Virus record (IMG/VR): IMGVR_UViG_3300037541_000509
Span: 1 to 20,494 of that record
Reading direction: 5' to 3' (one strand)
From: a virus
Length of the DNA: 20,494 nt
The translations under genes and the position numbers were made by a program. Of the stretch, positions 15,914 to 20,494 are shown one piece after another. Numbering within the stretch: position 1 is the stretch's first letter; every line of letters begins with the position of its first letter. Below the pieces are notes generated by a model, which was not told the DNA's origin, did no database searches, and saw nothing but the letters and a program-made list of their open reading frames with translations.

Positions 15914-15999
15914 GAGTCGCAGCAAACTAAAAACATAAAACACTAGCCCTGTTGAATGGTGCGAGACTGCGACCTCCCCATTCTTCGGGGCATTTTTTT
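15914..15999 (+). promoter_or_regulatory. Structured 5' leader with alternative terminator/anti-terminator (attenuator candidate)
   Basis: Four pairings can be read. Stem 1: GTCGCAG (15916-15922) with CTGCGAC (15967-15973), 7 bp perfect. A nested stem: CACTA (15941-15945) with TGGTG (15957-15961). Terminator: CCCC (15976-15979) with GGGG (15987-15990), then a T7 run at 15993-15999. Alternative: GAATGG (15954-15959) with CCATTC (15978-15983), 6 bp perfect, which excludes both the nested stem and the terminator. GCCC (15946-15949) can also pair with GGGC (15988-15991). The layout is that of an attenuator or riboswitch-like switch ahead of the replication genes. The ligand or trigger is unknown, and no known riboswitch class was recognised. 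Confidence 0.55.
15976..15999 (+). terminator. Leader terminator in front of the initiator gene
   Basis: CCCC, a 7-nt loop, GGGG, then CA and seven T. The 4-bp GC stem is short but the T-run is strong. It lies between the promoter and the initiator ATG, so it must be read through for the operon to be expressed. Confidence 0.55.
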
Positions 16000-16006
16000 C
16001 ACAAGT

Positions 16007-16726
16007 ATGAACACAGGACAAATAGTAAAAGCCAAGTCTGAAAGAGACTTTACAATGTTGAGTAATAAACTACTCCAAGACTGCACATTAACAATTGAAG
16101 AAAAGGGACTTTTGGTCTACCTTCTTAGTTTGCCTTCTGATTGGGTTCTTTATAAGAAGAACTTACCCGAGAAGACTGGAGAGTCTAAGGGAACAATAGA
16201 TCGTGTATTTAAACAGCTTCAAGAGAAGGGGTATATTATATCTGTCAAGGTAATTGATGTGGAGACAAAATTGTTTAAAGGATGGAATCATATTGTTTAC
16301 GAAATACCGATATTATCGGAAACCGACATTCGGGAAACACCGACATCGGCTTTTACCGACCTCGGTCAAAGTATGCCTATACAAATACTAAATACTAATA
16401 CAAATAATAATATTAATACAAATACTAATATAGGGAAAGCACGTTTTTCTCCTCCAAGTTTAGATGAGGTAAAGGCATTCTTCAGAGAAAAGGGGTATCG
16501 TGAGGATGTGGCTATAAAAGCATACAACTACTACAGCGATGGTAATTGGTGTGATAAGAATAATAAACCGGTTAAGAATTGGAAGTTAAAAATGCACATT
16601 TGGTTTAGAGATGAAAACAAGATACAAGAAGTTAAGCTAAAGGTGAGGACAGCATTTGGAGATATTGTTGAAGTAACTAAGCAACAATATAACTCAGCAG
16701 AACCAGGATACTATAAACAAATATAA
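16007..16726 (+). CDS. Replication initiator with N-terminal winged helix (239 aa)
   Basis: The start is set at the ATG at 16007 (MNTGQIVKAK), because the in-frame ATG at 15956 lies within the terminator leader. Residues about 10-95 form a winged-helix domain: LTIEEKGLLVYLLSLPSDWV, then LPEKTGESKGTIDRVFKQLQ, with the turn near GESKGT and the wing after GYIISVKV. Residues about 122-142 are a low-complexity Asn/Thr linker. Residues about 147-205 hold a DnaD-like/phage initiator C-terminal motif (PSLDEVKAFFREKGY, NYYSDGNW, VKNWKLKMHIWF). Such proteins bind origin DNA and load helicase. The linker and the segment before it are encoded by the iterons and AT-rich stretch proposed as the origin, as in lambda O. 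The helicase gene starts 2 bp downstream. Confidence 0.8.
   Translation: MNTGQIVKAKSERDFTMLSNKLLQDCTLTIEEKGLLVYLLSLPSDWVLYKKNLPEKTGESKGTIDRVFKQLQEKGYIISVKVIDVETKLFKGWNHIVYEIPILSETDIRETPTSAFTDLGQSMPIQILNTNTNNNINTNTNIGKARFSPPSLDEVKAFFREKGYREDVAIKAYNYYSDGNWCDKNNKPVKNWKLKMHIWFRDENKIQEVKLKVRTAFGDIVEVTKQQYNSAEPGYYKQI
16307..16432 (+). other. Candidate replication origin: four palindromic iterons plus AT-rich element
   Basis: Four CCGA-n-TCGG palindromes lie inside the initiator gene: 16307-16319 (5-nt centre), 16323-16333 (3-nt centre), 16340-16349 and 16356-16365 (2-nt centres). Starts are spaced 16, 17 and 16 bp. Directly downstream, 16377-16432 has no G except at its last positions and only a few C, and contains a 13-bp direct repeat ATACAAATACTAA. 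Iterons beside an AT-rich unwinding element within the initiator gene is the lambda ori/gene O arrangement. Confidence 0.65.
16379..16428 (+). repeat. 13-bp direct repeats in AT-rich element
   Basis: ATACAAATACTAA occurs exactly at 16379-16391 and 16416-16428 (37 bp apart), with related AATACTAATAC and AATAATAATA units between. It codes for the Asn/Thr linker of the initiator. Confidence 0.7.
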
Positions 16727-16728
16727 CA

Positions 16729-18480
16729 ATGGACAACTATCAAAAACTTACAGCACTCGGCATTGAGTGTAAAAATACATCGACTCAACAAAAAGTAAAC
16801 TGTCCATTCTGCAAAGACATTAGGTCGAATAAAAGAGACAAGTCTCTTAGCGTCAATGTAGAGTTGGGTGTATATAAATGCCACTACCCAAATTGCGAGG
16901 CATTTATGGGTAAAAGCGTCTCATCATTTGAGCGAAAGCCTGAGTACATACTTCCGGTTTCAAAACTGCAAAAAGTTAGCGACAAAGTTTTGTCATGGTT
17001 TGAGTCGAGAGGAATATCCAACAACACATTGCTTCAATTTAAGGTTACAGAAGAAGATGCATACTTTCCGCAAGTACAAGAAAATAGGAAGGCAATATGT
17101 TTTAACTACTTCAGAGGACCGGATCTCATTAACATTAAATATAGAGACGCAGCCAAAAATTTTAAGATGGTTAAGGATGCGGAACTCATCATGTATAATC
17201 TGAACGCAATAGAGGGCTATAATTGGTGTGTAATTGTCGAAGGGGAGATGGATGCCTTATCGATGCATGAAGCTCAAATTTACCCTGTTGTAAGCGTTCC
17301 TAATGGGGCAACAAAGGGTAATCAAAACCTTAAGTATCTCGATAACTGTATTGACCACTTCAAAGACAAGGATAAAATAATCATATTTACAGACAACGAT
17401 TCATCTGGAATCTCTTTAAGAGAGGAGTTAGCTAGAAGGTTGGGTAAAGAAAGGGTTTGGTATATAAACCCAATAGAGGGGTGTAAGGATGCCAATGATA
17501 TCTTAATCAATTATGGAGTAGAGGCAATTCAGAAAGTAATTGCAGAGAGTTACCAAGTGCCAATAGAAGGAATAGAGAAAGTACATGATGTAAAAGACAA
17601 GATACTTGACATATACACGAATGGATTTCCACATGGACTGAAGGTAGGATTTTCTGACTTTGACGATCATATGAGTTTTAGAGGTGGCGAATTTACTATA
17701 ATCACCGGAACTCCCAATGCAGGTAAGTCAACTTTTTTGAGCAATGTACTTGTCAGATTAGCTTCAAAACATGGTTGGAAGATAGCTATGTTTTCTCCCG
17801 AAAAACAACCTACCGAAATCCTATTCTCAGAATTAGCCGAGATATATATCGGAAAGTCATTCTCTTCCTATAACCAGGTTTTAAAGATGTCTAGGGAAGA
17901 ATTACAAAAGGCAGAAGACTTTGTAGATGAGAATTTCTTCTTTATGAAGATTGATGAGATAGATGTGACCATTGATGGGATACTTGCCAAAGCATCTGAA
18001 TTGGTTCAAAGAAATGGTATAAACTGTCTTGTAATTGATCCTTGGAATTATGTTGAGCATAAGTACGAAAGAGGCACTAATGAGACTCAGTACATATCAG
18101 AGGCTCTTACTAAGATAAAAAGATTTAAAGATAGATTTGGAGTCCATGTATTCGTAGTTGCCCACCCGACAAAGATTAGAAAGGAGAATGGGTCATATGT
18201 TGTACCAACACTATATGACATTGCAGGGTCTGCCCATTTCTTCAACAAGTGCGATAATGGGTTTGTTGTATATAGAGACTATGCTACCGGTCAAACCAAA
18301 GTGTATATTCAGAAAATTAGATGGTCATTCATTGGGAAAGTGGGGGATTCTAACTTCATGTATGATGTGAGTAACAAGAGATTTACTAGTATCATGGATG
18401 ACAAATACTCATTCAATCCTATAAGTGATTACGAGCAATTACAAGACGATATTACATACGATGAAAATATACCATTCTGA
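16729..18480 (+). CDS. Bifunctional primase-helicase, T7 gp4/Twinkle type (583 aa)
   Basis: The replicative primase-helicase that unwinds the fork and, through its N-terminal half, may make primers. Zinc-binding domain: C25-x2-C28 and C51-x4-C56. TOPRIM primase fold: VEGEMDALS (E171, E173, D175) and TDNDSSG (D222, D224, G227). RecA-like helicase: Walker A GTPNAGKST (327-335, K333), Walker B LVIDPWN (D437), a sensor His at 479 in VVAHPTK, and a candidate arginine finger near KIRWSF (528-533). The size is close to T7 gp4 (566 aa). The last residues, DDITYDENIPF, form an acidic tail ending in Phe. It lies 2 bp after the initiator and overlaps the next gene by 20 bp. Very confident for the fold; primer synthesis is inferred from the intact TOPRIM acids. 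Confidence 0.93.
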   Translation: MDNYQKLTALGIECKNTSTQQKVNCPFCKDIRSNKRDKSLSVNVELGVYKCHYPNCEAFMGKSVSSFERKPEYILPVSKLQKVSDKVLSWFESRGISNNTLLQFKVTEEDAYFPQVQENRKAICFNYFRGPDLINIKYRDAAKNFKMVKDAELIMYNLNAIEGYNWCVIVEGEMDALSMHEAQIYPVVSVPNGATKGNQNLKYLDNCIDHFKDKDKIIIFTDNDSSGISLREELARRLGKERVWYINPIEGCKDANDILINYGVEAIQKVIAESYQVPIEGIEKVHDVKDKILDIYTNGFPHGLKVGFSDFDDHMSFRGGEFTIITGTPNAGKSTFLSNVLVRLASKHGWKIAMFSPEKQPTEILFSELAEIYIGKSFSSYNQVLKMSREELQKAEDFVDENFFFMKIDEIDVTIDGILAKASELVQRNGINCLVIDPWNYVEHKYERGTNETQYISEALTKIKRFKDRFGVHVFVVAHPTKIRKENGSYVVPTLYDIAGSAHFFNKCDNGFVVYRDYATGQTKVYIQKIRWSFIGKVGDSNFMYDVSNKRFTSIMDDKYSFNPISDYEQLQDDITYDENIPF

Positions 18481-18871
18481 TCCGGCACTACAATTAGCAT
18501 TACGACAACTCGCAATAACAAAGTATAAAGATGGTGAATTAATAGGGTCTAAAGAAGACTATTTAGAGAATATTGAAGCTGTTTATATCTCTGTTAATAA
18601 AAATTATGATAAAATTTTAGAAGTTTTATTTGCATTTTGTGAGAAAAATGTTAGATATTTGCGAAAGCATAATTTAATAGAACAAAAAGTAAGCGAAGAA
18701 ATAATACTGAAGGCAAAGAAAAGAACTTGTAGGGAGATGGGAATATCTAAACCGGATGCAAGTGAGAAATATAAAAACAAATACCTTCAGAACCTTTATA
18801 AACTTGTTTACTGGGAGTTCATTAAGACACACACAATAGAAGAAGTAAAAGTTAAATTTAAAACAATATGA
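18461..18871 (+). CDS. Unknown protein in the replication operon (136 aa)
   Basis: The start is the ATG at 18461 (MKIYHSDPALQL), overlapping the helicase end by 20 bp. The frame extends upstream to 18425 but only inside the helicase. The protein is largely helical and basic, with PALQLALRQLAITKYKDGEL near the start and a Lys-rich region (KYKNKYLQNLYKLVYWEF) near the end. It has no known motif and two Cys. Its stop overlaps the next ATG (ATGA), so it is translated together with the DnaA-like gene. A replication accessory role, such as helicase loading, is conceivable from context but not supported by any motif. Confidence 0.5.
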   Translation: MKIYHSDPALQLALRQLAITKYKDGELIGSKEDYLENIEAVYISVNKNYDKILEVLFAFCEKNVRYLRKHNLIEQKVSEEIILKAKKRTCREMGISKPDASEKYKNKYLQNLYKLVYWEFIKTHTIEEVKVKFKTI

Positions 18872-19377
18872 AAACAAAATCAATTCACTTCCTGGACATA
18901 TTGGAATATGTGCCGGATTCAAAGAAAAATCAATTCATTACTGACTTGGTTGTTTATGTCCCACACATTCAAGCTGAGGCTGAGAAGTATAAAAACATTG
19001 TACATGACGTAAACTTTGGCAAAGAACGTACTGAATACATAAACTCAATGCGTAAAACAAGCAGGGAGATATGGAACAGCGATGACACATCGAGAAGAGA
19101 TTTGAAAAATATACAATCTCGTCAAATGTTGTATTACTTTTTATATAACACATTGCCATTATCTTATGCAGAGGTTGGAGGTTATTTCGATAAGGATCAT
19201 TCAACAGTTATACATGGAATTAAAAGATTTACCTCAGACATGGAGACGTCTTTAAGAACTAGATTAATGGTTGAGTTCTTTGTAACAAAAATGGAGGAAA
19301 ATGGTTACAGACAGCCAAGAAGAGCATATGAATTATTAATGAACAACATTGAAGTTTATGGAAATAACAATCAATAA
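18868..19377 (+). CDS. DnaA domain IV-like DNA-binding protein without AAA+ domain (169 aa)
   Basis: Residues about 80-121 match the DnaA C-terminal DNA-binding domain: LKNIQSRQMLYYFLYNTLP, then SYAEVGGYFDKDHSTVIHGI (99-118) and KRF, including the DHSTVIH signature that contacts the DnaA box. Residues 1-75 are helical and charged and are not a DnaA AAA+ ATPase: there is no Walker A or B, and the protein is about a third of DnaA length. It may bind DnaA-box-like sites in phage or host DNA, either to direct replication or to compete with host DnaA. It overlaps both neighbours (ATGA upstream, 20 bp downstream). Domain identity is confident; the biological role is inferred. Confidence 0.82.
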   Translation: MKTKSIHFLDILEYVPDSKKNQFITDLVVYVPHIQAEAEKYKNIVHDVNFGKERTEYINSMRKTSREIWNSDDTSRRDLKNIQSRQMLYYFLYNTLPLSYAEVGGYFDKDHSTVIHGIKRFTSDMETSLRTRLMVEFFVTKMEENGYRQPRRAYELLMNNIEVYGNNNQ

Positions 19378-19817: not shown

Positions 19818-20494
19818 GATACGGATCAGTATGTTCAGGAATAGAAGCTGCTACAATGGCATGGCATCCTCTAGGTTGGAAGGCACAATGGTTTTCGGAA
19901 ATAGAACCATTTCCATCAGCTGTCTTACAGCATCACTACCCAGAAGTTCCCAACTTGGGGGACATGACTTTAATTCACTCAAATCCTATATTTAATGAAA
20001 CAACTATCGATGTTCTCGTTGGAGGAACTCCCTGCCAATCATTCTCAGTCGCAGGTCTCAGAAAAGGAATGGAAGACCCTCGTGGCAACTTGGCCCTTGA
20101 ATTCTGCCGAATTGCTAATATTGCAAAACCCCAATGGATTGTATGGGAAAATGTCCCCGGTGTCTTGTCAAGTAACGGAGGAAAAGATTTTGCTTCCCTC
20201 CTCGGGGCGTTGGGGGAACTCGGGTATGGGTTCGCCTACAGAATTCTTGACGCTCAACACTTCGGAGTCCCACAAAGACGCAGAAGAATCTTTCTTGTCG
20301 GATATCTTGGAGACTGGAGACCTGCCGCAGCGGTTCTATTTGAGTCAGAGAGCTTGTGCAGGAATACTGCGGAGAGCAGAAGTAAGAGGGAAAAAGTTAC
20401 CCGAGCGATTGAGGCAAGCATTACTAACAACAGTGAGTCAGGAGAATGGTGGGATGGAGGACAAACAGCCGCAAGTTTAACTACTAGGTGTCAT
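19814..20494 (+). CDS. C5-cytosine DNA methyltransferase, partial (227 codons, cut by right edge)
   Basis: The frame is open from the ATG at 19814 to the last base and continues outside the window. It transfers a methyl group from S-adenosylmethionine to C5 of cytosine in a specific DNA site. Motif I is SVCSGIEAATMAW (5-17), motif II includes EIEPFPS, motif IV is GGTPCQSFSVAG with the catalytic Cys, motif VI is WENVPGVLS, and motif VIII is QRRRRIFLVG. The target-recognition region begins near residue 180. Its start overlaps the preceding stop (ATGA). No restriction partner is seen, so it probably protects phage DNA from host enzymes or marks it. Codons become visibly more GC-rich after about 20130 than in the rest of the operon, suggesting a different origin. 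Specificity cannot be read. Confidence 0.9.
   Translation, partial: MRYGSVCSGIEAATMAWHPLGWKAQWFSEIEPFPSAVLQHHYPEVPNLGDMTLIHSNPIFNETTIDVLVGGTPCQSFSVAGLRKGMEDPRGNLALEFCRIANIAKPQWIVWENVPGVLSSNGGKDFASLLGALGELGYGFAYRILDAQHFGVPQRRRRIFLVGYLGDWRPAAAVLFESESLCRNTAESRSKREKVTRAIEASITNNSESGEWWDGGQTAASLTTRCH

Follow-up and report, generated by a model that had tools for sequence, protein, structure and literature searches.

We identified, in the analysed stretch of viral DNA (20,494 nucleotides, hereafter the window), a region between positions 16307 and 16432 that, judging from its sequence and from homologous initiators of characterized phages, very probably (about 0.9) functions as a theta-type replication origin nested in the gene of its own initiator, of the kind served by the replisome organizers of TP901-1 and 80alpha. 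This interpretation, put forward in an earlier note, is supported by the conservation of the repeat register among relatives and by the homologous proteins TP901-1 Rep and 80alpha ORF20, both with published gene-internal origins, from which we infer activity in the window phage. The gene-nested layout is already known from other phages; a limited literature search returned no description for the window phage group. On the present reading, the probable origin of this uncultured group of phages would be narrowed to about 125 bp, and gene-nested origins would extend to initiators that are followed by a gene for a phage primase-helicase.

Iterons and AT-rich tract inside the initiator gene

The initiator gene occupies positions 16007 to 16726 of the + strand and encodes 239 aa; within the ORF 15956/16007-16726 the ATG at 16007 was taken as the start, in agreement with the relatives. 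The protein consists of an N-terminal winged helix, a disordered linker and a C-terminal domain. It matches HTH_36 of Pfam with E=6e-4, which is below Pfam's cut-off, and, among the PHROGs, phrog_186 (DnaD-like helicase loader, 8e-15) together with several replication-initiation families. In the AlphaFold model (mean pLDDT 69) the winged helix and the C-terminal domain are ordered, and linker residues 104-145, with pLDDT under 50, are predicted to be disordered; the Asn/Thr stretch of the protein is of low complexity. Foldseek found no neighbour of this model at E<=0.001, the weak winged-helix ones including MarR-type regulators and Geobacillus primosomal DnaB. Likewise, Pfam gave no match to a DnaB_2 (DnaD-like) or Phg_2220_C domain, a C-terminus that we treated as a common, not a defining, trait of TP901-1/80alpha-type organizers. 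Just upstream of the initiator start, positions 15940-16006 hold a hairpin like that of an intrinsic terminator, CCCC...GGGG with a T-run after it.

The four CCGA...TCGG palindromes lie exactly where the earlier note had put them, with starts at 16307, 16323, 16340 and 16356, and form an array (16307 to 16365, + strand) that covers codons 101-120, in the interval between the winged helix and the C-terminal domain, as had also been claimed. Unit 1 (16307-16319, CCGATATTATCGG) has an internal spacer of 5 nt, unit 2 (16323-16333, CCGACATTCGG) one of 3 nt, and units 3 (16340-16349, CCGACATCGG) and 4 (16356-16365, CCGACCTCGG) have spacers of 2 nt, successive starts being separated by 16/17/16 bp. 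Since the relative L001 carries a perfect CCGACATCGG at the place of unit 1, this unit is probably, from the sequence comparison, a CCGA half-site that has kept the register and whose TCGG partner is displaced. Elsewhere in the window CCGA-N2..5-TCGG occurs 0 times, against a first-order Markov expectation of 0.115. Furthermore, when the linker peptide was re-encoded by synonymous-codon resampling, four units appeared in 0 of 200,000 draws and three units in 2 draws. The units start in codon phases 0,1,0,1, and a repeated peptide therefore does not account for them.

The tract proposed as DNA unwinding element begins 10 nt past the last palindrome and extends from 16376 to 16432 of the + strand (codons 124-142). 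A G-free stretch beside the iterons had been described as 55 bp long; the stretch is indeed there and measures 57 nt, the longest + strand run without G in the window. It contains ACTAA and ATACAAATACTAA-type repeats, and at 16383 starts the window's most AT-rich 50-mer (90% AT). Array and tract together largely coincide with the predicted disordered linker. In the linker tracts of the family ACTAA is found 98 times against 33 expected, and a similar count gave only 4 copies of its reverse complement; ACTAA is absent from some groups (L010 and L064 types). TAN runs in the AT tract average 3.4 against 2.2 expected, which is only suggestive of a DnaA-trio element, and on the complementary strand a paired TnnT DnaD recognition element (PMC10201434) is a possible candidate. 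An oriC-like origin of DnaA type was rejected, as no TTWTNCACA occurs at or beside the AT tract; the nearest perfect copy, at 15995, lies in the T-run of the terminator, some 310 bp before the array. A separate gene at 18868-19377 (+) encodes a protein whose C-terminal helix-turn-helix resembles domain IV of DnaA (Bac_DnaA_C, E=3e-9, above Pfam's cut-off), with relatives in L001, L002 and L003 and, weakly, in L069; by its sequence, the product is a possible second initiation or regulatory factor.

The palindromes might also serve the initiator as operators for repressing or road-blocking transcription of its own operon, replication starting elsewhere. The MarR-type repressors among the winged-helix neighbours and the location of the sites in the first gene of an operon would suit such a function. 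However, the array lies 300 bp into the gene, not at a promoter, and is joined to the AT tract, and homologues of the same anatomy have published gene-internal origins, so that we regard operator function in place of an origin as very unlikely. Autoregulation may nonetheless coexist with origin function.

Conservation of the register among relatives

The comparison with close relatives was made on 77 IMG/VR loci; a scan of genome contigs for further relatives yielded none that was confirmed. Units or half-sites are spaced 16/17/16 in the window, L001 and L003, and 16/16/16 in L004, L006, L023 and others. As the earlier note had anticipated, the units keep their register while the linker peptide drifts: the peptide varies among relatives and the 16-17 bp spacing of half-sites persists even in relatives with as little as about 37% protein identity. 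As 16 cannot be divided evenly by 3, the codon phase of the units rotates in the relatives as well, and a repeated peptide therefore cannot produce the register. L003, L017, L025 and L031 have few or no perfect palindromes, with half-sites still in register; in L003 and L025 the sites are thus not lost from a gene that is kept. In 16 whole relative records most sites fall within the initiator gene. Three records have no exact match, and the exceptions are isolated single sites (e.g., in G010, where one palindrome lies at 1893, and in G012) and G005, in which 2 of 4 sites are outside the initiator and the other two are inside, 48 bp (3 x 16) apart.

The codons themselves bear the same mark. Where the residue is the same, codons are identical in 90 of 105 cases inside the array and in 986 of 1480 outside, whereas amino-acid identity is lower inside (105/159) than outside (1566/1943); these counts come from overlapping pairs, so that p-values are indicative only. 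The proposal that the DNA constrains the protein in this segment is thus borne out, synonymous codons being more conserved and amino acids less conserved within the array than outside it. This result bears directly on the view that the pattern has no function at the DNA level and simply arises from codon bias in a low-complexity linker. The Asn/Thr stretch is certainly of that nature, and AT-rich codons alone are expected to yield about one ACTAA in the window; yet the 16-bp register rotates through the frames, codon resampling does not reproduce the array and synonymous conservation is found precisely within it, and we therefore give this view almost no credence.

GC skew was uninformative. 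Cumulative minima do lie no more than about 1.5 kb from the initiator in the window, G006, G012 and G010 (in the last a local minimum, with the initiator at 26467), G002 having been left out of the comparison because its initiator is at the end of the record. The skew offers no independent support for an origin, since the minima coincide with the switch in gene direction. In the window the turn is at about 15500, where left- and right-facing genes diverge near the initiator. Third-codon-position skew is small and inconsistent, and the turn appears to reflect gene direction.

Iteron types and domain exchange in the wider family

A second scan, together with named phages, gave a wider set of 45 non-redundant initiators. 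At least two tandem CC[GA]-N4/5-[CT]GG cores 15-17 bp apart are found in 26 of them, and at least three cores in 14; the array exceeds codon resampling at p<0.01 in 19/45, and a general periodicity of 14-17 bp is detected in 31/45 at p<0.05. By this core pattern L104, L143, L152 and L159 have no array. The core spacing is 16 in the window clade, and phages of Gram-positive hosts mostly have 15; a 15-bp array is present in Bacteroides phage BK649P1 too.

Natural domain swaps in this set suggest, from sequence comparison, that the iteron type goes with the winged helix. For instance, L010 and L064 have C-terminal domains that are 93% identical and winged helices that are 46% identical, and their iterons are CCGACATCGG and CGGAAAGCGG, respectively; conversely, the CCGA...TCGG type is retained in many pairs whose winged helices share 50% identity or more and whose C-terminal domains share 25% or less. 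Simple linkage could also give this pairing, because the array adjoins the coding sequence of the winged helix. The L010 and L064 groups have in common, besides the C-terminal domain, an ATATATA-type tract without ACTAA, their winged helices and iterons being different; these groups hint that the AT element may follow the C-terminal half, an association that is not strict. In L069 and L083 the half-sites (CGGAAAGCGG and CGGAAAACGG) are direct, not inverted, at 15 bp, as if the orientation of a half-site could flip while the spacing is kept.

These loci also weigh on the idea that the units act as RNA hairpins or as another mRNA element. The window segment does fold better than its shuffles (z -3.1), as do those of L003, L010 and L069. 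On the other hand, the predicted folds vary between relatives and do not use the palindromes consistently; Staphylococcus phage SA13 (L083), with its direct half-sites, folds no better than shuffles (z -1.1), and L003 keeps its half-sites in register though the pairing is lost. We consider an RNA element highly improbable.

A broader proposal, to which we assign roughly even odds, is that the winged helix makes up a portable cassette together with the iteron array, in which one iteron grammar recurs across phages of several bacterial phyla, the sequence and orientation of half-sites are co-inherited with the winged helix, and C-terminal helicase-recruiting domains are exchanged via the disordered linker. 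The grammar would consist of a 10-11 bp core plus a mostly A/T-rich spacer of 5-6 bp, giving an in-frame period of 15 bp in phages whose hosts are Gram-positive and an out-of-frame one of 16 bp in the present Bacteroidota group. If true, it would amount to a readable code of initiator-origin specificity, for which the natural swaps offer cases where the DNA signal accompanies the DNA-binding domain. Origins could also be predicted from this grammar in many phages in which the HTH_36-type initiator carries no annotation beyond that of a hypothetical protein.

Proposed mechanism and relation to known origins

The gene next to the initiator (16729 to 18480, +) encodes a primase-helicase with Toprim and DnaB_C domains (PF13155, PF03796; phrog_239 DNA primase/helicase, 1.6e-96). 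We propose that the N-terminal winged helix would bind the four iterons, probably as one dimer per 10-11 bp palindrome with neighbouring dimers about 1.5 helical turns apart, that the complex would strain the adjacent AT-rich tract and cause its melting, and that the C-terminal domain would bring the phage's own primase-helicase onto the opened strand. The C-terminal domain (window 16442-16633, residues 146-209) recurs after different N-terminal regions in Flavobacterium phages (Lillamyvirus and Elemovirus; L084, L186), where the genes are directly upstream of primase/helicase; this recurrence fits a helicase-recruiting role. The terminase of the window is closest to those of phages of Flavobacterium, Cellulophaga, Tenacibaculum and Maribacter, which makes a Flavobacteriia-like bacterium the probable host. 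The sole near match of the window among phage records is that of positions 20230-20365 to Monoglobales phage PV036456 (79% DNA identity).

TP901-1 Rep (ORF13) is homologous to the window initiator (tblastn 3e-13, 35% over residues 6-120), and in its linker CCAGATGTGG cores recur every 15 bp ahead of ACTAAATACTAATA. Both this protein and Tuc2009 Rep (Rep2009) bind repeat-rich regions in their own genes, which serve as ori (PMC8965321). TP901-1 differs from the window in the iteron sequence, in the spacing (15 bp vs 16-17 bp), in a C-terminal DnaB_2 domain that the window protein lacks, and in having no primase-helicase directly downstream. 80alpha ORF20, also a homologue, has in its linker four cores and, after them, four ACTAA units, both series with a 15-bp spacing; in this locus (L180) the cores are at 1775, 1790, 1805 and 1820 and the ACTAA units at 1843, 1858, 1873 and 1888, within the putative origin annotated in that gene. 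Complementation of ORF20 in trans failed, and ORF20+21 were enough for autonomous replication (PMC5499656). Here the spacing of 15 bp is in frame and a DnaC-like loader, not a primase-helicase, lies downstream; SA13, a relative of 80alpha, has a Phg_2220_C C-terminus.

In SPP1 the direct repeats bound by the initiator lie within its gene, 38, beside an AT-rich unwinding element, at oriL (PMC6316719), and the initiator, G38P, is 26% identical to 80alpha ORF20 (PMC5499656). The layout is the same as in the window, a likeness that rests on the published description; SPP1 has in addition a second origin, oriR, and a separate loader and helicase. Finally, the arrangement had been said to mirror that of lambda, whose ori, made up of four iterons and an AT-rich tract, lies midway along the initiator gene O (PMC7466680). 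The layout is indeed found in the window, with four iterons and an AT-rich tract inside an initiator gene. However, the window initiator has no O-family Pfam match, phrog_678 is reached only with E=0.02, and lambda uses P and the host DnaB, whereas the window phage has its own primase-helicase gene alongside. Lambda O and its ori are thus best regarded as analogous, the closest precedent being the replisome organizers of TP901-1, 80alpha and SPP1.
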